Below are positions 14,801 through 42,097 of a stretch of 64,000 nucleotides of DNA, in pieces. Position 1 is the stretch's first letter. Each line of letters opens with the position of its first letter. The stretch spans positions 2,130,001 through 2,194,000 of the forward strand of contig NZ_CP025119.1 of assembly GCF_002831685.1 (NCBI RefSeq). Direction: 5' to 3'. The notes beneath the pieces were generated by a model that had not been told where the DNA came from, searched no databases, and saw only the letters and a list, made by a program, of their open reading frames with translations. The translations under genes and the position numbers were made by a program. This DNA comes from Polaribacter sp. ALD11. GTDB lineage: Bacteria > Bacteroidota > Bacteroidia > Flavobacteriales > Flavobacteriaceae.

Positions 14801-17800
14801 AAATGCATACACGTAATTTCCGTCTCCGCCAGTAGCATTTACGGTAATATTACCATCTATACAGTTTACATCATTTGTAAGTACTGTTGCATTTAATTGC
14901 GGTAATATAACATGATTTGAGGTAGTAACTTCACAGTCTAACTTGTCTTTAACTTTTATGGTGTAAGAATTAGGTAGTAAGTTTTTAAATGTATACGTAT
15001 TAGAGGTTGTACTCTCTGGTAATTGCCAAGGGCCATTATTAATACTAAATAGATAGTTTTCATTTCCTTTGGTAACCGTAACCTCTATTTCTCCATTAGA
15101 ACCATCGTAACATTGGGTACTTGTTGTTGTATATTCTAAAGCTGATGTAGGTTCTATTTTAATTGTAGCAGTAGTTGCAGCAACACAGCTACTGGCATCT
15201 TTTGCTTGTATTGTGTACGTACCTGCATCTAAGTTAGAAAATTTATTTAACCATGTTGCCCCATTATCTATACTAAATTCATAAGGAGGTGTTCCGCCTG
15301 AAGCGGTTGGTGTTATAATTGCATCTGCACCTTTACAAGATAAATTAGTTGTAACTGTAGCAGCAACTGTTATTTTTGTTGGCTCTGAAATAGTTTTGGT
15401 TCCAAGGTCTAAAATACAAGAATCTGACTTTATTTGTATTGAATAATCTCTTGCATCTAAACCACTAATAGTTACAGGAGAACTTGTTGCAGGAATCCAA
15501 CTTCCTCCGTTTAAAGAATATTCAAAACTAGCATTGAAGTTTTCTACAGAAAGTTTTATTTCTCCATCTGAACCCAAATTACATTTTACATTTCTGGTAC
15601 TTAAAACCTCACCAGCAAAAGCCTTATTCGGTTTAACTACAGCTGTAAAAGTTTCTACACATTTAGACCCATAATTAACCGCTATTGTATACGTATCTGA
15701 AGGTAATTTATCAAACACATTATTGTTTGTTGCGGCACCGCCATTAATACTATAAGTATAAAAAGTGTCTAAAGGCAATACCGTAATTGTACCTTCACCA
15801 GAACAGTTATAAGTTATATCTGAAGTAAATACAGGTGTAATTGGTAATGGTTTAAGTTCTATATCTTGTAATTTTAAAACACATTTATTAGCGTCTTTAA
15901 TAGCTAAAGAATAGGTTCCTTCAGATAGCCCTGAAAATGTTTTTTGTGACACATAATTACTACCATCTATACTAAATTTATAAGGAGCTGTTCCTCCAGA
16001 AGGAGTATCAAAAGATATTTCACCAAAACCTTCGCAAGTATATTCTTTGGTTAAACTGGCTGCACCTTTTAATTTATCTGGTTCTGTAACTGTAATATTT
16101 TTCTCATAGGTACAAACATCTAAACCTTTAGAGGCATTAATTTTAATTGTATAGTCTCCTGATTCTAAATTATTAAAACTACCAGAAGGCTTGTAACTTA
16201 CACCATTATCTATACTATATTCTAAAGTGTACCCTTGCAAACTACCGTCTACAGAAAGACTGATGCTACCATTAGATCCTTCAAAACAACTATTGTTTTT
16301 AATATCTTCTTTAAAAATTAAATCTGGTTCTTTGCCTATGGTAACTTCATTAGAAATAACCCAACAGTTATTAGCATCCATTACTAAAAACTCAAAAGTA
16401 CCTATCTTGTCTTCTTTAACGTCGTAGCTATTCCCTGTAAAAAAAGCATCAATAGGAATATCGTTTGGTGAGCTATAAAAATCGAGTCCGTTATGAGACC
16501 AAATTGCATAATTATAAAGAGGTGTACCGCCAGAAGTATTCAGTTCTATAATACCATCTGAACAATTAACATCTTTAACAACCACCGCAGAAAAATCTAA
16601 AGGAGTTGGCTTTGTAAAAGTAACGTTTCCAACAAAAACACAACTATTAGGGGCAGTAACTTCTACGGTATACTCTCCTTCTTCAGAAACTTCGAAACTA
16701 TGGTCGTTGTCTGCAATAGGCCCTGTATTTCCTAGAGCGGCTCCATCTTTTGTTAATTTATAGGTATAATCTCCAGGTATATTGTCTACTTGAACTCTAA
16801 TTTCTCCCTTAGAATCTGAACATAAAATAGGTTCTGTTATTAATTTTACGTCAATATTTTTTTCTAAAATATCGATATTGTTAACTGTATAAACACATGA
16901 AGTAGCAGAACCTCCTTTTTTTCTAATAAATAGAGAATAACTTCCTAAGGCTCCAATATTAAATAAATTGTCATCTTGAAAAGACCCAACACTATTTGTT
17001 AGACTAAACTCATAATTATCTGGTATGTTGTTAACAGTTATACTTCCTGGAGTACCACAAATAATGTCTTTTGTTACAATTTGTGGGGTTAAAGTAGCTT
17101 TAAAAACATTAAAGTAAAAACGTTTAAAACATCTTCCTTGATACCGAATTTCTAACCTATATTGGCCAGGTTCCTTTGCTGTAAAATCATTGCCAGTTTT
17201 TTCGGTATTCCAAGTACAAGAGTTATCTACATTAGCACAATCTTCACCTACTACTGCACCACAAGAATTCTCATCTAATTTCTGCCAAATTATGGCGTCT
17301 GAATTATCTATACTTGTTTCTATTTCTTTTATACTTCCATCTCCACATAAATATATTTCTGTTAATTTACTACCATCATTGGGGCACGTTTTAATTTTAT
17401 CTGCATACGCTAAAAGCGGATTCTCTTGTGCATTAAAAGAGACTACATTTACTATTTCTGAGGTACTTATACAACCTACAGGAGCAATCTTATTAACAGT
17501 ATAAGTACCCGTATTTAACACCGTTACACTTTGACTATTACCAATAACGTCTCCTGCTTCATTTTTCCATTCATAAGAAATAAAACCATTTCCTGCAGTT
17601 AAAGTTATATCTGCAGAACACAATACCTCATCTCTTTCATAACTACAACCAGATACATCCGCTAAAAAATTGGAAGGCCCTACCAATCCAACATTACATG
17701 TATTTACACCATAAAAACTAGGGTCTTCATTTATAATTATACGACTTTTCTCACCTCTATAACTTGCAATTACTTGGTTTTCTATTCTGTTAGAGCAAAC

Positions 17801-19309
17801 GTCTCTTAAGTCGTTACAGTTTTTTACAACTTGAACCTTTAACCTAATATTGTATAAAGGATCTCCAATTTCTACTAAATCATCTGGAATTGTAAAACGT
17901 AAAACACCTCTAAATTCATTGGCTGAAACAGGTGGTTCATAAGTGTATGTTACGCCAGGTGGCACTACTATATCTGATTCTACTAAATCAACATTTTTTG
18001 GTAATCTATCTATTAATTCCGTTCCTAAAGCATTGTCATTTCCTTTGTTTCTAAAACTTATATTGTACCAAATTAATCCTCCTAAATCAACATCACCTCC
18101 AGAAATATCGTTATTATTTCCGTCGTCAATTGTTTTTATGAGTTCTATATCTGGCTCTATAATATCAATACTCATTGCATTTAAAAAAGCCCAATACACA
18201 TCTTGTGTAGATTTAAATTTTATAGCTGCTTCTGTTTGTCCGTTACTAATTAGCCTATTATTTACATTGTTTATGCTAAATAAATCTGCATCAAAACCTA
18301 ACGTATTTTCACTACTCGGTTCCCTTCCGTTTAAAAAAGCATCATTTAAAGTTATAGAACCGTTAAAGAAGTTATATTCGGGGTTTAAGTAAGGAGTAGA
18401 AAAGTTTCGATAAACACCGTAAATATCTTTCATTTTAAACTGATCTCCTTGAATAGCTCTATCTCCTTCTAAAGCAGCAACTAGCATTTTTGCCTTTACG
18501 GGTCCATTAGGAATGGTCGTAAACCCAGAGTAAGAAATGTCAACTTCTGTTCCTCCACCCACACTAGAAAAACCATCAAAAATAGAAATTCTTCTACTAG
18601 GCTCTAATTCATTTTCATAAATCACAACCATTATCCAACCTCCAGAAGAACCTAAACGTCCTCTATCATCCCTTCCTACTGTAGCTTTTATGTTTGCTGC
18701 ATAGTAATCTCCATTAGGGTCCCCTAATGAACTAACCAATGATGTTACATCACTGTAACACATATATGGTTTTGATTCATCTTCACCATCATCATAAACA
18801 ATATCTCCTGTTATGTCTAAATATTCCCCACCTGGAAGTTTAAATTTAATTTCATTAAAGTCAGTGTCTCTTGCCCCATAATTAATAGTCCAATGTTTTC
18901 TTGGGTATACAGCTGCCCAATACAAGCCTGCAAAAACCACTTTAGAACAACCTGGTAAGTCTAATGCAGATTTACTTGAAGAGAATGTTTTAGGGTCAGA
19001 ATCTATATCAATATATTCCATATTAATTAGACCATTACCGTCATAACCATTATAATCATCGTTGGCTCTTGTACCATCTTGATGTTTACTAACAATACTG
19101 TTGGCAACAAAGGTAATGTCACCTTTTAAATTGATACCTCCGTTAGACAGCCTTTGCTTAAACGCAATGTCTTTTGCACGGTTAATTTTTGTATCTTTTT
19201 CTGTTTTTTGAACTTGCTGATCTTTAGATTGAGAATAAAAATCGACTCCTGCTGTTTGAATAATTAATATAAACAACAGTAATTTACTGCTTTGTAATAG
19301 TTTTTTCAT
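8831..19309 (-). CDS. Giant SprB-like adhesin with T9SS type B C-terminal signal
   Basis: A 3492-residue secreted protein. A signal peptide (about 1-27) is followed by an N-terminal beta-rich domain (about 50-380, with LPGCSKVVFAGLYWAAVYPR), a DUF11-like domain (about 390-530, IELIKTIDDGNNNDISGG), and then roughly 30 tandem SprB-type modules of 70-90 residues (about 550-3330). A typical module reads GGTxPYxFSIDxG, FxNLxAGxYTIxVKDxxGC, xTIxEP; most have one Cys near the start and a GC at the end. The final 85 or so residues (IPNFFTPNNNNENDYWYPEE ... GWDGIYNGKPMPTGDYWAII) are the gliding-motility-associated type B sorting domain. By analogy with SprB it is secreted through T9SS to the surface for adhesion or gliding. 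A PorP/SprF gene lies on either side of it in the same operon. Domain boundaries are estimates by eye. Confidence 0.93.
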   Translation of the reverse strand: MKKLLQSSKLLLFILIIQTAGVDFYSQSKDQQVQKTEKDTKINRAKDIAFKQRLSNGGINLKGDITFVANSIVSKHQDGTRANDDYNGYDGNGLINMEYIDIDSDPKTFSSSKSALDLPGCSKVVFAGLYWAAVYPRKHWTINYGARDTDFNEIKFKLPGGEYLDITGDIVYDDGEDESKPYMCYSDVTSLVSSLGDPNGDYYAANIKATVGRDDRGRLGSSGGWIMVVIYENELEPSRRISIFDGFSSVGGGTEVDISYSGFTTIPNGPVKAKMLVAALEGDRAIQGDQFKMKDIYGVYRNFSTPYLNPEYNFFNGSITLNDAFLNGREPSSENTLGFDADLFSINNVNNRLISNGQTEAAIKFKSTQDVYWAFLNAMSIDIIEPDIELIKTIDDGNNNDISGGDVDLGGLIWYNISFRNKGNDNALGTELIDRLPKNVDLVESDIVVPPGVTYTYEPPVSANEFRGVLRFTIPDDLVEIGDPLYNIRLKVQVVKNCNDLRDVCSNRIENQVIASYRGEKSRIIINEDPSFYGVNTCNVGLVGPSNFLADVSGCSYERDEVLCSADITLTAGNGFISYEWKNEAGDVIGNSQSVTVLNTGTYTVNKIAPVGCISTSEIVNVVSFNAQENPLLAYADKIKTCPNDGSKLTEIYLCGDGSIKEIETSIDNSDAIIWQKLDENSCGAVVGEDCANVDNSCTWNTEKTGNDFTAKEPGQYRLEIRYQGRCFKRFYFNVFKATLTPQIVTKDIICGTPGSITVNNIPDNYEFSLTNSVGSFQDDNLFNIGALGSYSLFIRKKGGSATSCVYTVNNIDILEKNIDVKLITEPILCSDSKGEIRVQVDNIPGDYTYKLTKDGAALGNTGPIADNDHSFEVSEEGEYTVEVTAPNSCVFVGNVTFTKPTPLDFSAVVVKDVNCSDGIIELNTSGGTPLYNYAIWSHNGLDFYSSPNDIPIDAFFTGNSYDVKEDKIGTFEFLVMDANNCWVISNEVTIGKEPDLIFKEDIKNNSCFEGSNGSISLSVDGSLQGYTLEYSIDNGVSYKPSGSFNNLESGDYTIKINASKGLDVCTYEKNITVTEPDKLKGAASLTKEYTCEGFGEISFDTPSGGTAPYKFSIDGSNYVSQKTFSGLSEGTYSLAIKDANKCVLKLQDIELKPLPITPVFTSDITYNCSGEGTITVLPLDTFYTYSINGGAATNNNVFDKLPSDTYTIAVNYGSKCVETFTAVVKPNKAFAGEVLSTRNVKCNLGSDGEIKLSVENFNASFEYSLNGGSWIPATSSPVTISGLDARDYSIQIKSDSCILDLGTKTISEPTKITVAATVTTNLSCKGADAIITPTASGGTPPYEFSIDNGATWLNKFSNLDAGTYTIQAKDASSCVAATTATIKIEPTSALEYTTTSTQCYDGSNGEIEVTVTKGNENYLFSINNGPWQLPESTTSNTYTFKNLLPNSYTIKVKDKLDCEVTTSNHVILPQLNATVLTNDVNCIDGNITVNATGGDGNYVYAFVVKGTTVTATNFGNTNTKAITAAGDFDVYVRDKAGLGDYCEFVKTVTISKTPDLGVVATSTDPKCFGEKGKIEVAISGGLAPYKIEISNTSGYSETINNYFNTTRDFINLLGGDYTVKITGSDSCIETTTATIVTPIALEAVISPILPPGCEADSSNFGFEFVVTNSYAPYTLQYSKDNGVNWLPSPIFMDIPSGTEVFPAIRIVEADGTTLRCEKLLDSYTIPYPVSNLVVSADAGGTCADGFSVIVEAKDGFGPYQFAINSDTNWQTPSPSNSDQFTFTNLTPGLSYVFYVKDATGCIKQNSVDVYDSYTPDIKVTGNVTKDACFTSDTGEVSFSIDDSLKPLTGQIDWELFDAVTVTSIKSGNQLDTSDITVSNLASGDYYMVITQGASCSWGSKTISIKRGAEIVGTVSNSRDITCALPGLVEISTIKGGFGGYEFTLSSPNFKADIVSSNLFIEVPLANIDILTDPIVITVNVTDASGCAKDLGTVDMLVSESPEIASVKANSCDTDKTIEVSGDKGLTPYYYSIDGGATYQTLSLFNNLPADDYTVKIKDSNGCESGTQIVTIVPTLVFEATITKNLDCSPSPNAEVVINVKNGSGDYDFEVKNSSGPGSISKGKLTTNPQTISLQNAGEYEIIVYDNNASDALGNSCPKTIPVKILEVASPTFSYTVTDSSCSGSNSGTIALTNLNKSVDYTYSINPVSGTFDIPSNSFINVKPGDYTIKAVGSNECSTNQTTIKVNEFDAIVVPTPTVTEFLCAKENTNENASISIDTSSITGGSGSYTIFEFIDNKGTPEITDDIIVQRGKEAIYFSNNKNGGNYTINVYDASGCIGTTNASIKPFAEISSVAVTVDKKLDCATGEKLTITYTSTLPIPNVSYTITGIKGFTDTNNTGVFTDLPEDTYTASVTNLTTGCSLETSHIVKEVAKFQLEVNTLNDVSCFGSKTGKISFNFSASTPYSGAYSYVLYNSVSGNATLLSGTSSGGVTVVNALEAGEYYAQIKMTDTPFCDVKSEVFSIENPVSVLDFTITKKEIDCNTATSGAILINATGGWGEYQYKVTTSSGSIVKDFNANNSIENLPAATYNVIVKDKNGCEVTKSIALKNPTPIAATWSETQSIVCNGGLGAEITVDVASGGQGNPPNYWYQIQKNGESISVKQSSNIFKNLSSGAYTVTVSDDFSCTLTLPVSISQPTKVVTKVAVTNSISCLVTLTSVEVSAAGGSGGYTYSSDGINFVSSNVFNVGPGNHQFYAKDKNDCVSEASATINTQAVTPLSAVLNVEASLISCATEENAIISAIASGGLGNYKFELLNSTDVVLRPKQTSNIFDNLGAGTYKIKVTSEDCEFTTLPTTIVEPKLLELTAPTEVENVTCFEGKNGTITINAKGGTGNLIYSIDEVKYVNTNKFTNLSAGTYNVIVQDESGCFIMETVIIKEPLALVASVINVTEETCFEDDDGSFSIKIEGGTAPYKTKLNNGVFVEGKLDFTNLLGGKTYTVFVEDTSGCETSVTVTLQKGVDLNLTTDTTLNCKNYLTTISASVAPSLASNVLYSLDGGTAQASGEFKDLATGIYKLTVLHTNGCKIEKDINIDNPDPLLFDGPIQVVNNLCYGESDGSITMNAKGGRGDYLYSIDGINYKTTNVFSNLLAGTYTVFVKDDLGCEPIKETVIIKEPLELIVTPKNIVEVTCSTDSNGSFELDISGDEAPYFTKLDEGTFVENQFSFSNLEGGKTYKVVVKGKNGCEKTVAVTLQPSINLILSPNLVYTCADGATISSRIVNSEYQNEITYTINGLNPQSHGVYKHLAPGTYEIKATHVKGCFVTSEIIVEDIGTLELVIDTATKNTLIADSYGGTPPYTFSLNGGEFDTNNVFLIHVTEEYTITVKDARGCEVSTKVKGNFIPIMIPNFFTPNNNNENDYWYPEEVESYHNLRVSIYDRYSRLLKEFTGIQQGWDGIYNGKPMPTGDYWAIIYYTDSLGAEQKIIRNFTLYR
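9310..10730 (-). repeat. Tandem duplication of a three-module block inside the giant adhesin
   Basis: Two adjacent blocks of about 230-240 residues (about 10730-10010 and 10010-9310) have the same order of three modules. The first modules share ITxNAKGGxGxxxYSID, TNxFxNLxAGTY and ETVIIKEPL. The second share APYxTKLxxGxFVE and GGKTYxVxVxxxxGCE with VTLQ. The third share a weaker YTIxG-like core. Elsewhere modules follow one another without such paired order, so a recent block duplication is the simplest reading. Borders are approximate because I compared the translations by eye. Confidence 0.65.
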
Positions 19310-31698: not shown

Positions 31699-34600
31699 AT
31701 GAAAACAAATATTCTTTTATGTCTTTTAATTTTATCCTTTAATTTACTTTTTGGGCAAAAAATTAAATTTAAACCCTTAACAACAAAAGAAGGTCTAACA
31801 AACAATTCTGTAAAAGATTTAATAAGCGATAAAGATGGTCGTTTATGGATTGCTACTTGGGACGGTTTAAATATCTATGATGGTAATCGCATCAGTTCAT
31901 TCAAACATCAACAAAATAATCCTTTAAGTATTGCAGGTAACATTATTATTAGATTTCAAAAGGATAAGAATGATACTATTTGGATGCTAACGAACAATAA
32001 ATCGATAAGTATTTATAAAGGAAATGGTGTTTTCAAAAATTATTATTTAGAAAATCAACCTAAAGATATTACACTTTCTAAAACAGGGTATTTAGTTATT
32101 ATTTATGAGAAAACATTTTTTAGACTAGATAAAGGAAAGCTAATACCTATTAATGAAAGTGAAATTGAAAATAGCGATTCAATAGCTCCTTTAGAAAAGT
32201 ATCTTTTAAAAAAACATACAGCGCTGGTTATAAATGATGTTCTTAAAGATGATGAAGGAAATATTTGGTATGCTACGCGTAAAAATGGGTTGTATATAAT
32301 TCCTAATACAACAGATAATGTCGATAATAACCGTATTGATCATTATATATACGACCAGTATTCTCCTTATAGTTTTACAAGTAATGAAATTGAAAAACTG
32401 TATCAAGATGATTTTGGAAACATTTGGTTAGGACATAAAGATGGAGGAGTAAGTATGGCTTATAAAAACTCTGAAAAAATAACAACAATAATACCACATC
32501 CTTTAAATTTTCCTCATTTACCAAACGAAACTATACGTGCTATAACAAAAGATAGTGAAAGTAAAATATGGCTTGGGTATTATACAAAAGGACTCTTCTT
32601 TTTTAGCAATAAAACGAAATGTTTTTTACCATACACAATATCTGAAGCAAAAAATAATGACGATTTAAATCGTATTAGAAGTTTATATACAGATTCTAGT
32701 GGCACTATATGGGTTGGTACTTATGCGGGCATTATACGTATAGATAAAAAAGGGTATAAATTATACAATGCAGAAATAATTAATGCTTTTCCAGATAATA
32801 GAAATTATGCTTTCTATGAAGATGCACAAAAACAATTATGGATTGCATGTTGGGGAGGTTTAGCAAAATTTAACCTTACTAATAACGCGTTTGAAACGTA
32901 TAAATATCAAGAACAATTAACTTCCTTTAATATTCGTCATTTTATTATAGAAGAAGACCTAATAGCAATTGCAACCGAAGAAAAAGGAGTATTATTTTTT
33001 GATAAACAGAAAGGGGTAATAAAGCAAATAACTACAAATGAGGGTATATTAGGAAATAGTATATATAATATCTATTATGATAAAAAAACTAAATATTATT
33101 GGATAGCCACATTAGGAGGCGTTAGTATTTATAATTTAGAGAAAGGTATTATAAAAAACATTACCGAAAAGGAAGGACTTCCAAGTCACATGGTATATGG
33201 TTTGCTTCCTAATAATGATAAAATATGGATAAGCACAACTAAAGGTGTTGCTTTTATAAATAAACTTAATTATAATGTATCTAGTCTTTCTCCCGATCAG
33301 GGATGGCAAGCAGAAGAATTTTCAGAAGGAGCGGCATATCAAGACCAAAAAGGAATGCTTTATTTTGGCGGAATAAACGGACTGAGTTATCTACAGCCTA
33401 ATGTATACAACCAGCCAAATTATTTGCCCAAGCTAAAAATTGTTATCAATGATGATGAAAATTTTGGCAGCGTATTAAAAAAAGAATACACAGATAATAG
33501 TCTTACTATTTCTATCAACTCAATTGAATTTTCAAATACTAAATCTCCTGTTTTTTATAAACTAGAAGGTATAGATAGCTCTTGGATTAGACTGGATGAT
33601 GACAAAATATTTTATGAAAATATTCCGTCAGGAACATATAATTTTTTTACTAAAATTAGAGATTTTGAGCACACAAAAAAGAACGTGTTTCAACTTCATA
33701 TAGAGAAACCTTTTTATAAGACACTCTTATTTTATCTTTCGGTATTAGTAATATGTTGTCTTTTAATAACATTGTTTATCCTAAGAAAAAATATAGTTTC
33801 AAAAAAGCATCAAAAAGAATTAGAAAATAAAATAATAAAAAGAACGACTATCATAGAAAATCAGAAAAAAAACTTGGTAGAAGTTAATAGAAATCTTGAG
33901 GAAAAGAACAAAGAAATTCTTAATCAAAAAGAAACCGTTTTAGCATTGCATCATCAAATTAAAAACAAAGATTTTGAGGTAGATAAATTTAAAACCTTTG
34001 TACTTTCTTCTTTTAAACCAAAGCTTTCTAAGATGCTTGCTCAAATTCAACAATTAGAGAAAACAGCAGTTAGTAATTTGTTACATCTAGAAACAATTGG
34101 CCTCGTGCAATTAATTTCTGAATGGGATTATCTAAACCAAGTAAAAGATTTAGGTAGTTTGAAGCCGAGTCAAATTCATTTTAAAAATTTTATTACTAAT
34201 TTATACGAACAAGTTCATTCAGAAAAAACAACAACAAAAGCAGTCTTTAAGTATGTTAATAATACGGATACAGATATAATTCAAATGGACGTATTAAGGT
34301 TTCGGTTATTGTTTCAATATTTACTAAACGACATTCTTAAATTCACAGAAGATAATGACGAGTTAACAGTAACTTGCGAATTAACGTTAAATACTATTTT
34401 ATTAAAAGTTGAAACAACAAGTTATTTATTAGAAGAAGAATGGCATAATATTCAGCAATTTAGTCCTAATTACAAAGCGGCTGAAATATTACTTAATGAC
34501 CTGGAAGGTAAATTGAGTAGAACAAATGCATCTTCTTTTGAGCTTTCTGTAAACATTCCAATTAAAACCTTTCTTAAAGAAGAGCCTGCATTTGGAAAAG

Positions 34601-35403
34601 TGATATTAAAGCATTTGTATCAAAAAGAAAATATTTCTAAAGAGATTCCTGTTACTTTGGTGCTTTGTAAAGAGGAAGATGCTAATTTAGTTTATCAATT
34701 GGTAAAGCATGACGATTTTCAGCTAGTTTTTGAACACGATATTCAGTCTATGTATTCGGCTATACAAAACTTGGCTGTACAATCATTCATTCTATATAAT
34801 ATTCCTTTTACACACGAATGTGAACAATTACTTAAGCATCATAAAGTTCAGCAATTTCCGGTTATCTATATAGCAGAACAAGTTGATTTTATTTTTGAAG
34901 AACAAGCGCTTGATGCAGGTATAAATACGGTAATACATCTTCCTGTAAGCGTCGATTTTATTCATAAAAAAATAATGGCATTAATACACCAATACCAATC
35001 GCAGTATCAATCTAAAATAGCAATATTGCGTAATAATTTAGAGAAGAAACCAATCTTAAATTTGCAAGAAAAAATTGTAAAACAAGGTATGGAAATTATT
35101 AAAAATCAATTAGGAAATTCAGAATTTAATGTTGACAAACTAATAACAGCGCTAGAGATATCACGTACTAAGTGTTACCGTGTTTTTAAAAAAGTGATGC
35201 ACCAATCACCTTCAGACATCATTATGAATCTAAGGCTGCAAAAAGCAGAACAATTATTAGTCTTAGGACATCTGAATATTTCGGAAATAAGTTTTGAATG
35301 TGGTTTTAATGATCCTAAATACTTTAGCCGTCTTTTCAAAAAACATTTTGATGAGAGTCCGAAATCATTTCAAAAGCGAAAAACAAACAACGATATTCTT
35401 TAA
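31699..35403 (+). CDS. HTCS-type membrane regulator with degenerate kinase and receiver, AraC-family HTH
   Basis: A 1234-residue protein with the architecture of Bacteroidota hybrid two-component regulators. A signal peptide is followed by a two-bladed-set Reg_prop beta-propeller sensor (about 20-580, repeats such as DGRLWIATWDGLNIYDG and GNIWLGHKDGGVS), a Y_Y_Y domain (about 594-675), one TM helix (about 676-695), a coiled coil (700-760), a HisKA/HATPase-like region (about 760-963), a receiver-like region (about 984-1104) and an AraC HTH (about 1131-1234, ISEISFECGFNDPKYFSRLF). Catalytic residues look lost: the H-box reads FVLSSFKPKL without His, the N-box is LLNDILKFT, no G-boxes are seen, the receiver lacks its phospho-Asp (SFILYNIP) and its Lys (VIHLPVS). 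It probably senses ligand in the periplasm and controls the susC/susD genes that follow by direct, phosphate-independent signalling. Confidence 0.88.
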   Translation: MKTNILLCLLILSFNLLFGQKIKFKPLTTKEGLTNNSVKDLISDKDGRLWIATWDGLNIYDGNRISSFKHQQNNPLSIAGNIIIRFQKDKNDTIWMLTNNKSISIYKGNGVFKNYYLENQPKDITLSKTGYLVIIYEKTFFRLDKGKLIPINESEIENSDSIAPLEKYLLKKHTALVINDVLKDDEGNIWYATRKNGLYIIPNTTDNVDNNRIDHYIYDQYSPYSFTSNEIEKLYQDDFGNIWLGHKDGGVSMAYKNSEKITTIIPHPLNFPHLPNETIRAITKDSESKIWLGYYTKGLFFFSNKTKCFLPYTISEAKNNDDLNRIRSLYTDSSGTIWVGTYAGIIRIDKKGYKLYNAEIINAFPDNRNYAFYEDAQKQLWIACWGGLAKFNLTNNAFETYKYQEQLTSFNIRHFIIEEDLIAIATEEKGVLFFDKQKGVIKQITTNEGILGNSIYNIYYDKKTKYYWIATLGGVSIYNLEKGIIKNITEKEGLPSHMVYGLLPNNDKIWISTTKGVAFINKLNYNVSSLSPDQGWQAEEFSEGAAYQDQKGMLYFGGINGLSYLQPNVYNQPNYLPKLKIVINDDENFGSVLKKEYTDNSLTISINSIEFSNTKSPVFYKLEGIDSSWIRLDDDKIFYENIPSGTYNFFTKIRDFEHTKKNVFQLHIEKPFYKTLLFYLSVLVICCLLITLFILRKNIVSKKHQKELENKIIKRTTIIENQKKNLVEVNRNLEEKNKEILNQKETVLALHHQIKNKDFEVDKFKTFVLSSFKPKLSKMLAQIQQLEKTAVSNLLHLETIGLVQLISEWDYLNQVKDLGSLKPSQIHFKNFITNLYEQVHSEKTTTKAVFKYVNNTDTDIIQMDVLRFRLLFQYLLNDILKFTEDNDELTVTCELTLNTILLKVETTSYLLEEEWHNIQQFSPNYKAAEILLNDLEGKLSRTNASSFELSVNIPIKTFLKEEPAFGKVILKHLYQKENISKEIPVTLVLCKEEDANLVYQLVKHDDFQLVFEHDIQSMYSAIQNLAVQSFILYNIPFTHECEQLLKHHKVQQFPVIYIAEQVDFIFEEQALDAGINTVIHLPVSVDFIHKKIMALIHQYQSQYQSKIAILRNNLEKKPILNLQEKIVKQGMEIIKNQLGNSEFNVDKLITALEISRTKCYRVFKKVMHQSPSDIIMNLRLQKAEQLLVLGHLNISEISFECGFNDPKYFSRLFKKHFDESPKSFQKRKTNNDIL

Positions 35404-35532
35404 CGTAAGATTACCCCAATATTACCTTAATGTTATTGTAACAAAAATCCTAATAAACCATCCTTATTCGCTTGTAAAATGTATCAATAGTACACTTTTG
35501 TGAAATGATAATCCACCTAAAAATAGCATCAC

Positions 35533-35569
35533 GTTTATAGTTTAGCTTCAAAAATATAAACTATTAAAC
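35533..35569 (+). promoter_or_regulatory. Leader hairpin directly before the susC start codon
   Basis: GTTTATAGTTTA and TAAACTATTAAAC form an imperfect inverted repeat (one bulged base) around a loop of about 12 nt, ending 3 bases before the susC ATG at 35573. It could be a translational control hairpin or an operator for the upstream AraC-type regulator. No consensus -7 box was found in the 169-bp gap. Confidence 0.4.
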
Positions 35570-35572
35570 CAA

Positions 35573-38500
35573 ATGAAAAAATTAACTTTATTACTAACTT
35601 TTGTAATTAGTATAACCTCTATGTCTTGGGTTCAGGCTCAAAAAACGATAGAAGGTGTTGTGCTAGATGACTTAAAAACTCCTTTACCAGGAGCAAATAT
35701 TCTAATTAAAGGTTCGGCAAAAGGAATCTTCGCTAATTTTGATGGAGAATTTAAAATTGATGTTAAAATTGGAGACGTTTTAGAAGTGTCCTTTTTAGGA
35801 ATGAAAACAAAAGAAGTTCTCATTAAAAATTATAATTATCTAAACATCTTATTAGATGCGGATGCTTCTCAATTAAATGAAATTGTTTTAATTGGTTATG
35901 GTTCTTCTAAAAAAGGAGATTTAACATCTGCTATTTCTACCGTTAGTAACATTAAAGATATTGCTTCCAGACCCGTTTCTAACTTTGCTGATTTCTTACA
36001 AGGAAACGTTGCTGGTGTTACTGTAATGCAGCAAGGAGGAGACCCTACCTCTAATGCGAGTATAGTAATAAGAGGCTTTGGCTCTGTTAATTCAGAAGCT
36101 CCATTAACAGTAGTAGACGGTGTGCCTTATTACGGACCAGCAATTAACCCTAATGACATTGCTTCGGTTTCTATTTTAAAGGATGCGTCGGCTGCTGCTA
36201 TTTATGGTGCTCAGGCAGCTTCTGGGGTTATTGTTATTCAAACTAAAAGAGGAAAAATTGGAAAACCACAAATAAGTCTAGATGTCTATTCTGGTTTTCA
36301 AAGTGCATCAAATTTACCAACATCTTTAAACGCCAAACAGCAAGCAGATGTTTATAATTTAGCTGCTGATAATGGTGGTACTCCAAGACAATCTGCCCAT
36401 AATGCGACTCAAAACCCTTGGGGACAAACAACAAGAACAAATTGGATGGACGCTATCTTTAGAGCAGCGAGTGTATATAATGTTGCTGCAAATATAAGAG
36501 GTGCTTCTGATAAAGTGAATTATATGACTTCTTTCAACTACAATAAGAAAGAAGGTATTTTATTAGGTACACAATCTGAAAGATACTCTTTTCGTGTAAA
36601 AAATGATTTTAAATTAACAGATAAAGTTACTGTAGGTGAAAATATCTATTTTTCTAATACACAAGCCACAGGAACCAATACCTCTAGTGGTTATTCAGGT
36701 GCTATTATTAGTGCATTATACATGCCGTCTGCTGCTCCTGTTTACGATAATGAAGAAATGTTTCATGGTGTAGTTCCTTATAGCTTATCAAAATTTGCAG
36801 GGGCTTATGGAGATGTTTACAATCCTGTGTCATTGTTATTAAGACCAACAGTAGAAAACCCAGTTTCTTTTATAAATGCAAATGTGTTTTTAGATTATAA
36901 AATTATTGATGGTCTAAAATTTAAAACAACATATTCTTTTAATAGAACGAATGAAAGCTACAAAGGTTTTTTTCCTAAAAGACCAGAGTTAGGTAGAACT
37001 AGTCTAGAAAACTCATTAACACAAAGTAGTAGTATTCTTAATAGATGGGTTTGGGACAACCAATTGTCTTACACTAAATCTTTTGGAAACCATAATTTAA
37101 ACCTAACAGCTATTTATTCTGCTCAATTTAGTGATTATGAATATGAAGTTGCAACAGGTAAAGGTTTTAGTAGTGAAGCTCCTTTTAATCAATATATAAA
37201 AAATGCTTCAGAAATAACCAGTTACAGTTCAAGTGCTCACGAAGATGCACTAACATCTGCAATAGGTAGAGCGATGTATAATTACAACGGAAAATATTTT
37301 GTAAGCGGAAGTATTCGTAGAGATGAAACTTCTAGATTAGCGCAAGGAAACCAATCAGACGTGTTTCCAGCAGCATCATTTGGTTGGAAAATTTCTAAAG
37401 AAGATTTCTTTAATATTGAAGCAATTAATAGTTTAAAAATGAGAGCTTCTTGGGGACAGATTGGTAACATTAATTCTGTAGGTTACTATTCTTTTGATGT
37501 GCCTTTAGGAGGTCAAACACTAATTATTGGAGAAGATGGTTTAGAGAATGACAAAGGAGTTTATGCTAAAAAGCAATCAAACCCAAATTTAACATGGGAA
37601 ACATCTGAGTCTATAGATATTGGTTTAGACGCTACACTTTTTAATAATAAGTTGTCATTAACCTTAGATTATTTCGAAAAAACTACAAAAGGCATGATAT
37701 TGCCTGGTTTAGAAGATGCACACCAAGGTATATCTGCTGCAGATGTAAATGGAGGTGAAGTTAAAAACACAGGTTTAGAAATTGCTGCTAGCTATACCGA
37801 TGCTATTGGAGACTTCAACTTCACAATTAATGGAAACGCATCTACTCTTAAAAATGAGTTGATAAATCTAAAAGGATACAATAATAGTAACATAAATTAT
37901 GTAGCTCATGATGATAATGTTAGAAGTGTTTTAACGCCCTACAGATCTGTAGTAGGTAGAGAATTGTTTTCTAATCACTTAATACCCTATTTAGGTATTT
38001 TTCAATCTCAGTCAGAAATAGATGCACATGCTAAAAACGGAAACCTTATACAACCGTATGCTGTACCTGGAGATTTAAAATTTCAGGATACCAATGGAGA
38101 TGGTAGTATTAATGATGACGATAAGGTGTTTATGGATAGTTATCAGCCAGATTTAACATACAGTTTTGGTCTTAATCTAGATTATAAAGGCTTTGATCTT
38201 GGTATGGTATTGCAAGGTGTTGCAGGCGTAAAAGCATTTAATGGTTATAAATATGTTGCTTATAACGCGTCATTACAAGGATATAACTTAGATAATAGCG
38301 TTTTAAATGCTTGGTCAGATACTAATACAGCTTCAACAATTCCGAGAATATCTACAAAAGACAACAACAATAATTTTGGCACAACCTCTAGCTGGTATTT
38401 AGAAGACGCATCTTACTTAAGACTTAAAAATATAACAATGGGGTATACAATGCCAAAAGATGTTCTAAATACAGATTTACGCATTTTCATTTCAGCAGAA

Positions 38501-38620
38501 AACATATTTACCGTTACTAATTATTCTGGTATAGATCCAGAAGTAGGTGGTAAAGGATTAGATGTGGCTAAATATCCTTTGTCTAAAACATTTACAATAG
38601 GCTTGTCTTTAAAGTTATAA
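35573..38620 (+). CDS. SusC/RagA family TonB-linked outer-membrane transporter
   Basis: A 1015-residue protein with a signal peptide, a carboxypeptidase-regulatory-like domain (about 23-95, IEGVVLDDLKTPLPGANILI), a TonB plug with the SusC signatures (VIRGFGSVNSEAPLTVVDGV and DVxSIxxLKDASAAAIYGA-type segment near 205), and a 22-strand barrel ending in the aromatic C-terminus typical of outer-membrane proteins. It imports oligomeric nutrients through the outer membrane with SusD as lid, powered by TonB. It is followed by susD after 20 bp and preceded by the HTCS-type regulator. The absence of glycoside hydrolases here and the phosphoesterase fusion downstream suggest a phosphorylated substrate. 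Confidence 0.95.
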   Translation: MKKLTLLLTFVISITSMSWVQAQKTIEGVVLDDLKTPLPGANILIKGSAKGIFANFDGEFKIDVKIGDVLEVSFLGMKTKEVLIKNYNYLNILLDADASQLNEIVLIGYGSSKKGDLTSAISTVSNIKDIASRPVSNFADFLQGNVAGVTVMQQGGDPTSNASIVIRGFGSVNSEAPLTVVDGVPYYGPAINPNDIASVSILKDASAAAIYGAQAASGVIVIQTKRGKIGKPQISLDVYSGFQSASNLPTSLNAKQQADVYNLAADNGGTPRQSAHNATQNPWGQTTRTNWMDAIFRAASVYNVAANIRGASDKVNYMTSFNYNKKEGILLGTQSERYSFRVKNDFKLTDKVTVGENIYFSNTQATGTNTSSGYSGAIISALYMPSAAPVYDNEEMFHGVVPYSLSKFAGAYGDVYNPVSLLLRPTVENPVSFINANVFLDYKIIDGLKFKTTYSFNRTNESYKGFFPKRPELGRTSLENSLTQSSSILNRWVWDNQLSYTKSFGNHNLNLTAIYSAQFSDYEYEVATGKGFSSEAPFNQYIKNASEITSYSSSAHEDALTSAIGRAMYNYNGKYFVSGSIRRDETSRLAQGNQSDVFPAASFGWKISKEDFFNIEAINSLKMRASWGQIGNINSVGYYSFDVPLGGQTLIIGEDGLENDKGVYAKKQSNPNLTWETSESIDIGLDATLFNNKLSLTLDYFEKTTKGMILPGLEDAHQGISAADVNGGEVKNTGLEIAASYTDAIGDFNFTINGNASTLKNELINLKGYNNSNINYVAHDDNVRSVLTPYRSVVGRELFSNHLIPYLGIFQSQSEIDAHAKNGNLIQPYAVPGDLKFQDTNGDGSINDDDKVFMDSYQPDLTYSFGLNLDYKGFDLGMVLQGVAGVKAFNGYKYVAYNASLQGYNLDNSVLNAWSDTNTASTIPRISTKDNNNNFGTTSSWYLEDASYLRLKNITMGYTMPKDVLNTDLRIFISAENIFTVTNYSGIDPEVGGKGLDVAKYPLSKTFTIGLSLKL

Positions 38621-38639
38621 ACTAATAAAATAATAAAAA

Positions 38640-40226
38640 ATGAATACTAAAATTTTAAAAACAGTACTGATCCTTTTAGGCCTTACATGTTTTACAATAA
38701 CATCTTGCTCTGATGATTTTACCAATTTAGAACCCAAAGGAAGTTCTTCTTATAGTAACTTCTGGAAAACCGAACAAGATGCCATAGAAGCAGCGAATAG
38801 CATGTACTATTACATGAAAGATGGAGATATGTTCGGTAGAGGATTTATGTGGTATATTAATGCCTCAGATGATATGATAACTGGTCGTATTAAAAGTTAT
38901 GCTGATAATACCAAAAACTTTAATATTAGTGGTGATGAAAGTGGTTTAAAGTGGATGTATCCTCAAAGTTATAAAATCATACGAAGAGCTAATGATATTT
39001 TACTTAATGTTGCTACGATGGACATTAATAAAAAACTAAAAGACAAAATTTTAGGTGAAGCTTATTTTATGAGAGCTTTTCATTACCATTGGTTAGCATA
39101 TCATTATGGAGACAACAGTTTAAACGGAGGAATACCTATTATTACTGAAGAAAACATGTTTGATGATGCAGGTAGCTATAAAAGACCTACAAGCGTTACA
39201 GAAAATTATAAACAAATTATTGAGGACCTAAATAAAGCAAAAGATTTATTGCCTTTATATACCGAATATAGCACAGAAGATTATGGGCGTGCTCATAAAG
39301 ATGCAGCATTAGCTTACATTGCAAAAACATACTTATACTGGGCACAACATGACGCTTCTAAATATGCAGCTGCGGTAACAGCTTGTGATGCGGTAACTAA
39401 TTCAGGATCTGGAAGAGCTTTGGTAGATACAAATACCCCATCTGAAGATTACAGATTATTACATAGTCATTTAAATAATTGGACTAGTGAATACATATGG
39501 TCTGTAGATTCTGGTATACAAGGAGGAAGTATATTGCCAGGAGTTATGTTAGAAAACAAAGGCTGGGGAACTTATAATGGTTGGGGTTACTATCAACCAA
39601 CTCAAGAATTATATGAAGCATTTGAAAATGGTGATGCAAGAAGAGAAGTTACCATTCTTAAATTTGGAGATGAATTTCAGTTTTTTGGCGAAACAAAAAA
39701 GTACCAATCAGAAAACTCTTTATCTGGTTTTCAATTTAATAAATATATGTATGAATATCAATTTGAAAATCCAATAGGAACTTATATAAACCCTAATGGA
39801 GACTCCCCTACAACAGCATACAATATTCCTATTTTACGTTATGCAGAAATTTTACTAATAAAAGCAGAAGCATTAATTATGTTAGGAAAAAATGGAGATG
39901 CTCCTTTAAATTTAGTAAGAAATAGAGCGGGCCTTACCCCAATAACAAATGCGACTATGACAGATTTAAAGAATGAAAGAAGAGTTGAATTTGCAGGAGA
40001 ATATGCAAACAGACATTTTGATTTGGTACGTTGGGGAGATGCAAAAGAAGTATACAGTAAACCTCTTCACGGTAGAATTCATACAGACCGTTCAGATCCA
40101 AATTCGTCTTATAAAATAGAAGAAATATGGCCAGCAAGAAATTTTGATGCTTCTTATATGAATGTATGGCCAATTCCGAATCAATCGGTAAATTCTTCTG
40201 GAATACCTCAAAATAAAAATTGGTAA
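38640..40226 (+). CDS. SusD/RagB family nutrient-binding outer-membrane lipoprotein
   Basis: A 528-residue lipoprotein; signal peptide ends TCFTITSC, with the lipidated Cys near residue 23. It has the SusD opening FTNLEPKGSSSYSNFWKTEQ DAIEAAN, tetratricopeptide-like helices with AEAYFMRAFHYHWL-type core (GEAYFMRAFHYHWLAYHYG), and the conserved C-terminal block with LRYAEILLIKAEALI, RNRAGL, and ERRVEFAGEYANRHFDLVRW. It is the surface lid of the SusC transporter encoded just upstream and determines substrate binding. A hairpin terminator follows 34 bp after its stop. Confidence 0.95.
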   Translation: MNTKILKTVLILLGLTCFTITSCSDDFTNLEPKGSSSYSNFWKTEQDAIEAANSMYYYMKDGDMFGRGFMWYINASDDMITGRIKSYADNTKNFNISGDESGLKWMYPQSYKIIRRANDILLNVATMDINKKLKDKILGEAYFMRAFHYHWLAYHYGDNSLNGGIPIITEENMFDDAGSYKRPTSVTENYKQIIEDLNKAKDLLPLYTEYSTEDYGRAHKDAALAYIAKTYLYWAQHDASKYAAAVTACDAVTNSGSGRALVDTNTPSEDYRLLHSHLNNWTSEYIWSVDSGIQGGSILPGVMLENKGWGTYNGWGYYQPTQELYEAFENGDARREVTILKFGDEFQFFGETKKYQSENSLSGFQFNKYMYEYQFENPIGTYINPNGDSPTTAYNIPILRYAEILLIKAEALIMLGKNGDAPLNLVRNRAGLTPITNATMTDLKNERRVEFAGEYANRHFDLVRWGDAKEVYSKPLHGRIHTDRSDPNSSYKIEEIWPARNFDASYMNVWPIPNQSVNSSGIPQNKNW

Positions 40227-40260
40227 AAAATTGTTTTTTTAATTATTTGTTTGAATTTAG

Positions 40261-40296
40261 AAGGTGCTATCTAGACATTTAGATAGTACCTTTTAT
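40261..40296 (+). terminator. Hairpin terminator/attenuator between susD and the phosphoesterase gene
   Basis: A 13-bp stem with one G-U pair (40261-40273, AAGGTGCTATCTA, with 40280-40292) has a 6-nt loop and is followed by TTTATT. Only about 14 bp separate it from the next ATG at 40310, and no promoter box is seen in between. It therefore looks like a partial terminator that lowers expression of the phosphoesterase relative to susC/susD. Confidence 0.75.
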
Positions 40297-40309
40297 TAAT
40301 TATTTATTT

Positions 40310-42097
40310 ATGTTTTATAGAGTCCAAAAAATTATCATCCTTTTTATTTGCTGTGTAGCAAGTATAAATGCTCAACAAAAAGTACATTCTCATAATGATT
40401 ACTTGCAAAAAGTTCCGTTTTGGAACGCCTTTTCTGCCGAGGCAAGTTCTATTGAAGTAGACGTTTTATTAAAAAACAATACACTTTACGTTGCCCATAG
40501 CCAAAGTGATATTATTGAGAACAGAACACTTGAAGGTTTATATCTAAACCCTTTACAACAAGCTCTAAAGTTAGGTTTTAATGATACAAAAAACATTCAT
40601 TTACTAATTGATGTAAAATCTAATGCCTATAAAACACTCCATAAAATTATAGAGGTTTTAAAAAGTTACCCTAATTTAACAGAAACAAATAAAATTTCGT
40701 TTACTATTTCTGGTAACAGACCAAAACCATCAGAATATAAAAACTATCCAGATTTTATAAAATTTGACTATCAAAGTTTAGAAAATATTTCAATTGATGC
40801 TTGGAAAAAAGTAGCACTTATTAGTTTAGATTATAGTAAGTTTTCAAAATGGAACGGGAAAGGACGTTTTACAAAAGCCGACAAGCAAAAAATAATTAAC
40901 GTTATAGAAGCAGCACACAAATACCATAAACCATTTAGGTTTTGGGGTACACCAGACTCAAAAACAGCTTGGAAAGCTTTCTCTGACTTAGGCGTCGATT
41001 TTATAAATACAGATATGCCTTTTGCTTGTTATCAATATGTAAAAAACTTTAAAAAGCGTACGTACACAAACTCATTATTTTCAAAAGTATATACACCTAC
41101 TTTTAAAAATGATCAGAAAAAGAAGCCTGTAAAAAATATTATTTTATTAATAGGTGATGGAAATGGACTCACCCAAATATCTGCCGCTACTTTAGCAAAT
41201 AAAGGAGCATTAACATTAACACAACTTAAAAGTATTGGGCTTATTAAAACGCAATCTTCGGATGATTTTACAACAGACTCTGCTGCTGCTGGTACTGCAT
41301 TAGCAACCGGAAAAAAAACATACAATAGAGCAATTGGTCTAGATTCTTCAGAAAAATCTATAAAAAACATTACAGAGATTTTGCAAATGCATCATTTTAA
41401 TACGGGCATTATAACAACAGATAATATTACAGGAGCAACACCGTCATCTTTTTATGCACATCAAAAAGATAGAGATGATGAATCTGAAATAGCACAAGAT
41501 TTATTAAAGAGTAAACTCAACTTATTTGTTGGAGGTGGTAAAAATCAGTTTAAGGATTTTGGTGGATTTGAAATTCTAAAATCACCAAAAGAAATTGGTA
41601 CTTCTAAAAATAATAAAATAGGCTTTTTCATGTCAAATAAAGGTGTGCCTGGAGTTTTAGAAGGTAGAGGTAATCTTTTAGCTGAGGTTACATTAAACAG
41701 TTTAGCGTATTTTAAAACAAAAAAGCAGCCTTTCTTTTTAATGATTGAAGGAGCACAGATAGATAGTTACGGACATAGAAATGATACGAAAGGGATTATT
41801 AGCGAAGGGATTGATTTTGATAAAGCAATAACTACTGCTATTAAATTTGCGGACGCCAATGAGGGTACTTTAGTTATTATAACAGCAGATCATGAAACTT
41901 CTGGCTTTAGTATTCCACAAGGTAATTTAGAAACCCATGAAGTTGAAGGTAATTTTACTACATATGACCATACAGGTGCATTAGTTCCTGTTTTTGCTTA
42001 CGGCCCTCATTCTAATGAATTTTCTGGAGTCTATGAAAACACCGAAATCTTTCATAAAATAATGAATCTTATAAAACTTTATAAAAAAAGTAAGTAA
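40310..42097 (+). CDS. Bifunctional glycerophosphodiesterase-like / alkaline phosphatase fusion
   Basis: A 595-residue exported protein with signal peptide (about 1-21). Domain 1 (about 22-255) is GDPD/PI-PLC-like: VHSHNDY with His28, SIEVDVLL with Glu49 and Asp51, and YVAHS with His63 match the metal and catalytic positions of the fold. Domain 2 (about 275-590) is a PhoA-type alkaline phosphatase with NIILLIGDGNGLTQISAATL, the nucleophile Ser near 324 in TTDSAAAGTALATGKKT, MIEGAQIDSYGHRND, TADHETSGF and YDHTGALVPVF. The first domain would cleave a phosphodiester and the second would free phosphate. It belongs to the susC/susD locus and probably supplies periplasmic processing of the imported compound. 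Both domains keep their main catalytic residues. Confidence 0.88.
   Translation: MFYRVQKIIILFICCVASINAQQKVHSHNDYLQKVPFWNAFSAEASSIEVDVLLKNNTLYVAHSQSDIIENRTLEGLYLNPLQQALKLGFNDTKNIHLLIDVKSNAYKTLHKIIEVLKSYPNLTETNKISFTISGNRPKPSEYKNYPDFIKFDYQSLENISIDAWKKVALISLDYSKFSKWNGKGRFTKADKQKIINVIEAAHKYHKPFRFWGTPDSKTAWKAFSDLGVDFINTDMPFACYQYVKNFKKRTYTNSLFSKVYTPTFKNDQKKKPVKNIILLIGDGNGLTQISAATLANKGALTLTQLKSIGLIKTQSSDDFTTDSAAAGTALATGKKTYNRAIGLDSSEKSIKNITEILQMHHFNTGIITTDNITGATPSSFYAHQKDRDDESEIAQDLLKSKLNLFVGGGKNQFKDFGGFEILKSPKEIGTSKNNKIGFFMSNKGVPGVLEGRGNLLAEVTLNSLAYFKTKKQPFFLMIEGAQIDSYGHRNDTKGIISEGIDFDKAITTAIKFADANEGTLVIITADHETSGFSIPQGNLETHEVEGNFTTYDHTGALVPVFAYGPHSNEFSGVYENTEIFHKIMNLIKLYKKSK

Follow-up and report, generated by a model that had tools for sequence, protein, structure and literature searches.

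Gene organization of the locus

The 64,000 bp stretch of the Polaribacter sp. ALD11 genome analysed here (the window; contig NZ_CP025119.1, positions 2,130,001 to 2,194,000) carries, at positions 31699-42097 of its + strand, four genes coding for a regulator, a SusC/SusD pair (SusCD) and an enzyme in which a GDPD-like domain is fused to a PhoA alkaline phosphatase. The regulator gene (31699-35403; 1234 aa) is followed by susC (35573-38620; 1015 aa), which codes for a SusC-like TonB-dependent outer-membrane transporter, by susD (38640-40226; 528 aa), which codes for a SusD-like protein, and by the fusion gene (40310-42097; 595 aa). SusC was assigned with Pfam (Plug and CarbopepD_reg_2) and NCBIfam (OMP_RagA_SusC, 825 bits for a cut-off of 368), SusD with Pfam (SusD_RagB and SusD-like_3) and the fusion with Pfam and AlphaFold2. 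The SusCD pair of the window is designated type A to distinguish it from the type B pairs of other loci. Loci and genomes of the comparison samples carry L and G numbers.

SusCD systems are usually taken as glycan importers. A Pfam scan of the seven open reading frames (ORFs) of at least 100 aa found between 30297 and 43619 detected no glycosidase or lyase (0/7), as the first-pass annotation had read from the sequence together with the order and common strand of the four genes. A canonical polysaccharide utilisation locus was rejected on this basis. The co-location of a SusCD-like pair with a phosphoesterase, in a segment devoid of carbohydrate-active enzymes (CAZymes), is the arrangement known as a phosphate utilisation system (PUS). 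The flanking genes code for a 292-aa protein on the - strand, whose Zn_peptidase match stays below the cut-off, an Ion_trans channel and a TPMT-like methyltransferase.

The fusion enzyme

The fusion protein begins with a hydrophobic N-terminus, probably a signal sequence, followed by the GDPD-like domain (residues ~22-256) and the PhoA domain (residues ~262-592). Both domains exceed the Pfam cut-offs (GDPD_2, 32.9 bits for a cut-off of 27; Alk_phosphatase, 192 bits for a cut-off of 24.4), GDPD_2 was matched in the ten fusion members scanned (10/10), and the AlphaFold2 model has a pLDDT of 92.2. The GDPD-like domain (40376-41074, + strand) features the invariant residues H26, H28, N29, D30, E49, D51, H63, D101 and K103. 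H26, E49, D51, H63, D101 and K103 are unchanged in 50 sequences, the most divergent of which is 39% identical to the window protein, and include the two His and the acidic metal ligands that define the GDPD superfamily; their catalytic roles are presumed. The nucleophile Ser and the metal ligands of PhoA are also present, and the residues expected to be catalytic in either domain do not vary among the same 50 sequences.

Sequence searches at E≤0.001 turned up no solved relative of the GDPD-like domain. Its best weak profile match is a GDPD (3no3), with an E of only 0.019, and it gave no match to the bacterial PI-PLC family, whose members occur as neighbour genes at three related loci (see below). 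All the rows listed in a structure search with the fusion model are PhoA matches; unlike the fusion, the TAB5 alkaline phosphatase (2iuc, 2w5v) has no GDPD-like domain. From the invariant catalytic residues we infer that one protein may first cleave a phosphodiester and then dephosphorylate the product, as the first-pass annotation proposed; the passages of the literature considered here contain no diesterase assay.

The membrane regulator

Combined use of Pfam, a 21-row alignment, AlphaFold2 and Foldseek divides the regulator into a Reg_prop propeller, a Y_Y_Y sensor, a transmembrane stretch, a coiled coil, a pseudo-histidine-kinase, a putative pseudo-receiver and an AraC-type DNA-binding domain. 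Pfam identified Reg_prop, Y_Y_Y and HTH_18/AraC, and gave no match to HisKA, HATPase_c or Response_reg at E≤0.1. A histidine-kinase fold was found nevertheless in the AlphaFold2 model of residues 695-1234 (pLDDT 82.9; 20 rows), whose best Foldseek matches are the histidine kinase 6qrj (E 7.3e-11) and then ThkA, AdeS, RetS, DivL and further kinases. The receiver region of the model shows five alternating strands and helices, with no separate receiver among the best 50 Foldseek rows.

The phospho-His position of the H-box is occupied by Ser in 15, Ala in 4 and Thr in 2 of the 21 aligned rows, and the N-box Asn is apparently replaced by Asp or Glu. After receiver strand 3 the window protein has N1034, a position that is Asp in 4/21 rows (L092, L093, L127, L128), while the Lys expected after strand 5 is Leu in 21/21 rows (L1081 in the window). 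The H-box, N-box and receiver acceptor positions are assigned from the motifs of kinases and by analogy with known receivers. The protein is built like a hybrid two-component system of which the phospho-acceptor positions have been lost. The earlier label "HTCS-type" (hybrid two-component system) holds for the architecture and fails for the phosphotransfer residues; a canonical hybrid two-component regulator was rejected on the phospho-acceptor residues.

The order of propeller sensor, membrane, kinase fold, receiver-like fold and AraC domain is that of the Bacteroides hybrid two-component systems, from which the window regulator differs by lacking the phospho-acceptor positions (compared with passages of PMC11253607). 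A hybrid regulator without the His is not a new idea, because a single loss of this kind is published, BT4236 having a Gln in place of the phospho-acceptor His (passage of PMC11253607). A limited search of the open-licence PubMed Central (PMC) literature returned no report of phosphotransfer residues lost across a syntenic orthologous group. A regulator of this type, kept beside its operon, would provide a natural test of signalling without phosphorylation.

Direct repeats upstream of susC

The segment between the regulator gene and susC contains two groups of repeats. At 35400-35446 (+ strand) four TTA units at 11-bp steps are followed by TGTAACAAAA. Known Pho boxes have a period of 11 bp. 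The bare pattern of four TTA is not significant in the 64-kb window alone (1 match for 0.37 expected); its weight comes from the recurrence of the array before susC elsewhere and from matching sites at further promoters of phosphate genes. Of 29 regulator-susC gaps, 17 have four TTA units at 11-bp steps, 2 have three and 10 have two; TTA pair distances in these gaps peak at 11, 22 and 33. The repeated pattern RTTA-N4-AAN has three perfect sites in the source genome: in the window locus, in a divergent OprP-Pit/TonB-receptor promoter and at a DUF3244/AraC pair.

A stricter form of this pattern was applied to 15 genomes, taken from the 28 others in which the regulator locus is complete, and gave 11 matches versus 2 in the reversed control. 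Seven of the 11 fall at the regulator-SusCD-fusion locus itself, which is expected and not independent because the pattern was read off that locus. One of the other four directly precedes a Pit transporter (G500) and another is flanked by the genes of a TonB-receptor-like protein and of a protein of 374 aa, the start of which resembles endonuclease/exonuclease/phosphatase proteins (both likenesses judged by eye). For the last two no connection with phosphate is apparent. Across 66 fusion loci (1.16 Mb) the pattern, with at most one mismatch allowed, yielded 49 matches, 48 of them intergenic, versus 4 in the reversed control; many of the 49, found mostly before susC, count a single site several times, through close relatives or overlapping registers. 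In four type B loci (L136, L138, L140, L141) a match precedes the fusion gene itself. Direct repeats of 11 bp thus precede phosphate genes at the 17 susC gaps with four units, at OprP/Pit in the source genome and at Pit in G500; the array is Pho-box-like and a predicted PhoB site. None of the matches listed in a search of the open-licence PMC literature was a paper on a Bacteroidetes Pho box.

Just downstream of the array lies a 21-bp direct repeat (approximately 35480-35517, + strand; its exact register in the window is uncertain), a probable site of the local AraC-type regulator. The usual spacing of AraC-family sites is 21 bp. In 18 representative gaps of the 29, compared with 60 letter shuffles, the lag-21 self-similarity is 10.22/16 versus 7.54 (z 8.5; the anchor of L109 was set one repeat early), and there is a lesser rise at lag 22 (z 5.1) and at lag 31 (z 3.8).

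Three other regions of the source genome (G000) were inspected. At 2706876-2715647 (L184) the genes of an OprP-like porin and Pit diverge from those of a TonB receptor and a 669-aa protein without Pfam match, the 11-bp repeats being in the common promoter. The perfect site at 2644422 (L183) is placed between the DUF3244 protein and the AraC regulator, with no visible phosphate link. A second SusC-SusD-PhoA set is found at 2111085-2117231 (L200), ~44 kb before the window locus, with a SusD of the SusD-like_2 family and a stand-alone 358-aa PhoA; its susC is not preceded by a four-unit array, and only three bare TTA units at 11-bp steps were seen nearby.

Distribution and conservation

The fusion was found in 16 of 166 genus genomes (E≤1e-100) and in 46 of 397 sampled family genomes (E≤1e-110), the source genome being counted in both. 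Sought independently of the fusion, the regulator is present in 15 of the 166 genus genomes (E≤1e-100), in each case 4.9-6.2 kb from the fusion: 15/16 fusion genomes have it versus 0/150 of the others (Fisher p 2e-20, relatedness ignored). Of 7994 proteins scored in a search with the fusion, 3252 are relatives at E≤0.001, many of which may be plain PhoA. By precomputed domain assignments, all but three of the 120 listed carry both PF13653 and PF00245. The name Flavobacterium johnsoniae is absent from a listing of the best 120 matches. In the tree the window fusion groups (100/95) with the Confluentibacter and Flavobacterium jejuense proteins and two from metagenomes, apart from the other genus members, with unsettled bootstrap, a position that fits horizontal gain.

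Since the loci were collected through the fusion, its presence in each of them is no result. The family loci examined were 40 of the 45 outside the source genome (those of G531, G399, G566, G520 and G261 were left out). SusCD accompanies the fusion in 36/40. Fifteen have type A SusCD with the regulator, including L131, in which the regulator is cut by the edge of the stretch and a type B pair is found too. Another 21 have type B SusCD only, 11 of them in the order fusion-SusC-SusD, all 11 with full type B SusC and SusD. The remaining four (L110, L120, L125, L147) have no SusCD beside the fusion. The genus loci comprise seven with type A SusCD and regulator (window included), eight with type B SusCD, regulator and an extra PhoA, and one (G097) with type B SusCD and no regulator. 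In three loci of a different family within the order the SusCD is type A-like (38-45% identity) and there is no regulator gene. The four-gene unit is more than a chance assembly, because the identical gene order recurs in other genomes. The co-conservation check on homologous loci that had been suggested with the first description of the locus was run on loci gathered through the fusion, and regulator, SusC, SusD and fusion proved syntenic in many Flavobacteriaceae; this synteny is new here.

Relation to the Flavobacterium johnsoniae PUSII locus

The closest described system is F. johnsoniae PUSII, composed of PhoA1 (Fjoh_3249), PusD2 (Fjoh_3250), PusC2 (Fjoh_3251) and a FecR-like gene (Fjoh_3252), whose transcripts rise upon phosphate depletion with fold changes of 7.40, 8.94, 9.03 and 9.88, respectively (PMC8115612). 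In the passages of that paper considered here PhoA1 carries pf00245 and pf13653 and an extended diester range is suggested for it. Passages of a second paper report that PhoA1 and PhoA2 restore monoesterase activity, in the case of PhoA1 in a phosphatase mutant background (PMC8812569). The two sources differ on PF13653, placed in PhoA1 (Fjoh_3249) by PMC8115612 and in PhoA2 (fjoh_3187) by PMC8812569; the conflict is immaterial to activity, both proteins being active as monoesterases.

PUSII and the window locus share a SusCD-like pair beside a PF00245 and PF13653 phosphatase and a phosphorus role, and the passages on PUSII name no CAZyme. Compared by its published description, PUSII differs by the adjoining FecR-like gene and by pf16344 on PusC2, features in which it resembles the type B locus L143, which has ECF sigma and FecR genes and a SusC whose FecR_C match falls short of the cut-off (20.3 versus 24.4 bits). 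The window locus has type A SusCD and an AraC-type membrane regulator, the SusCD pairs being compared by description. The kind of locus is already known, then, and the new variation lies in its regulator, SusCD type and promoter. That the locus scavenges phosphorus, as the first-pass annotation put forward, is well supported by the published induction of a homologous locus by phosphate depletion, the monoesterase activity of PhoA1 (passages of PMC8115612 and PMC8812569) and the Pho-box-like array before susC.

Genes adjoining the fusion in related loci

Full or partial iol genes are found beside the fusion in 5/40 family loci. L120 and L125 have an iol operon with a sodium/solute symporter, L108 and L115 have iolJ-, iolB- and iolC-like genes up to the edge of the stretch, and L117 has an iolJ-like gene. 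IolB, IolC, IolD, IolG and MMSDH of L120 exceed the NCBIfam cut-offs while its IolE scores 206 versus a cut-off of 290; the operon of L125 was judged by similarity to L120. A PI-PLC lipoprotein adjoins the fusion in L128 (1gym, E 1.6e-38), and PI-PLC-X lipoproteins 48-49% identical to it do so in L105 and L107, which are distant from L128 in the fusion tree. A PI-PLC like that of L128 is present in one of the 397 family genomes at E≤1e-15, where its copy is next to the fusion; these tallies come from one query at E≤1e-15 or 1e-10, which distant forms may escape. The single weak PI-PLC-X match of the source genome is a 587-aa protein with a full GDPD domain and was discarded as a PI-PLC.

The iolD gene is present in 8 of the 46 family fusion genomes versus 12 of the 351 others. 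In six of the eight it lies 8-18 kb from the fusion; in the remaining two it is distant or on a separate contig. All eight iolD genomes of at least 3 Mb in the family sample carry the fusion, while the 12 iolD genomes without it are all of 1.3-2.7 Mb and no sampled fusion genome is smaller than 3.2 Mb; given these ranges, genome size is a confounder of the association.

Other neighbours were found as well. In six family loci (L140, L133, L136, L138, L141, L129) a fusion-SusC-SusD run follows an island of PbfA-like lyase, type I phosphodiesterase and purple acid phosphatase genes, with GH1 in 5/6. The PbfA-like gene resembles (R)-1-hydroxy-2-aminoethylphosphonate ammonia-lyase, and a link of phosphonate and diester use is possible. 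L114 likewise has a PbfA-like gene. GH92, type B SusCD, iol genes and the fusion occur together in L108 and L115, with a LacI regulator in L108; a mannosyl-inositol-phosphate or glycosylphosphatidylinositol (GPI) is a possible substrate there. Weaker GH92 similarity was seen near L112 and L042.

Proposed substrate and mechanism

We think it somewhat probable that the window holds a PUS-type locus importing an inositol phosphodiester, which the fusion would split and dephosphorylate, under the control of PhoB and the AraC-type regulator. An inositol phosphodiester is favoured, without certainty, over a general glycerophosphodiester scavenger, its main rival, because some orthologues adjoin PI-PLC genes or myo-inositol operons. 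A number of results weigh against the inositol reading or its promoter part. iolD is absent from the source genome, which was searched for no other inositol pathway, and from each of the 166 genus genomes, as it is from 38 of the 46 family fusion genomes. The five iol loci form one clade (92/95) and so represent few independent events. None of the four genus genomes with a PI-PLC homologue carries the fusion (0/4), the six PbfA-type islands before the fusion suggest a wider substrate range, and the GDPD-like domain lacks a solved sequence relative at E≤0.001. As for the repeats, the ten gaps with two units do no better than shuffles, the pattern shows no enrichment over the whole source genome when one mismatch is allowed (37 matches versus 32 in the control), and only two of the four strict matches outside the locus are phosphate-linked, versus two control matches. 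Searches of the open-licence PMC literature showed no report of an inositol role for a GDPD-PhoA fusion.

A general scavenger would take up mixed glycerophosphodiesters with choline, ethanolamine or glycerol head groups, the inositol neighbours being lineage-specific add-ons. The GDPD-like rather than PI-PLC-like nature of the domain, the missing iolD and the phosphonate/phosphoesterase islands all fit this view, which we regard as unlikely, if still a serious competitor, since the rare L128-like PI-PLC sits next to the fusion and the iol operon lies within 8-18 kb of it in six of eight iolD-fusion genomes. The handling of oligomers normal for SusCD could instead point to a phosphodiester-linked oligosaccharide (a GPI, mannosyl-inositol-phosphate or phosphomannan fragment), a proposal to which GH92 in L108 and L115, its weaker relatives near L112 and L042, and GH1 at the PbfA-type loci lend some credit; with no glycosidase in the window locus, and no match to GH92 or GH1, the CAZyme families queried, at the 14 complete regulator loci of the family sample (0/14), we consider it improbable. 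Slightly less probable still is an ordinary phosphomonoester locus in which PhoA alone does the work and the GDPD-like domain has a structural role or no activity: the invariance of H26, E49, D51, H63, D101 and K103 in divergent sequences argues against it, even though monoesterase activity is the only one reported for the F. johnsoniae relative in the passages of PMC8812569 and the operons of several relatives include a second, stand-alone PhoA.

In the preferred inositol phosphodiester model, a PhoB-family regulator would bind the 11-bp repeat array under phosphate starvation, while the AraC-type membrane regulator would sense the substrate, bind the 21-bp repeats and probably join PhoB in switching on susC, susD and the fusion gene. 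It might signal without a phosphorelay, through a ligand-driven rearrangement transmitted by its pseudo-kinase and pseudo-receiver. A soluble phosphodiester freed from lipids would be captured by SusD and imported by SusC; in the periplasm the GDPD-like domain of the fusion would open the diester and the PhoA domain would then release phosphate. Favoured substrates are glycerophosphoinositol, inositol cyclic phosphate or a larger inositol-lipid head group. Where a lineage has an iol operon, the inositol could be consumed too, while the source genome, without iolD, would use the phosphate only. We advance more tentatively, and with less than even confidence, that Flavobacteriaceae possess a family of inositol-lipid head-group loci, formed of SusCD and GDPD-PhoA, fed by surface PI-PLC or drained by an iol operon according to the lineage, and with a promoter gated twice, by PhoB for phosphate hunger and by the phosphorelay-free regulator for substrate. 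The paired operators predict AND-logic between phosphate and substrate. If lipid-derived phosphodiesters are imported, the substrate range of SusCD, a major nutrient importer of Bacteroidota, would widen to phospholipid head groups, a part of the marine organic phosphorus pool.

Elsewhere in the window, the - strand contains an open frame of 3492 aa (8831-19309).

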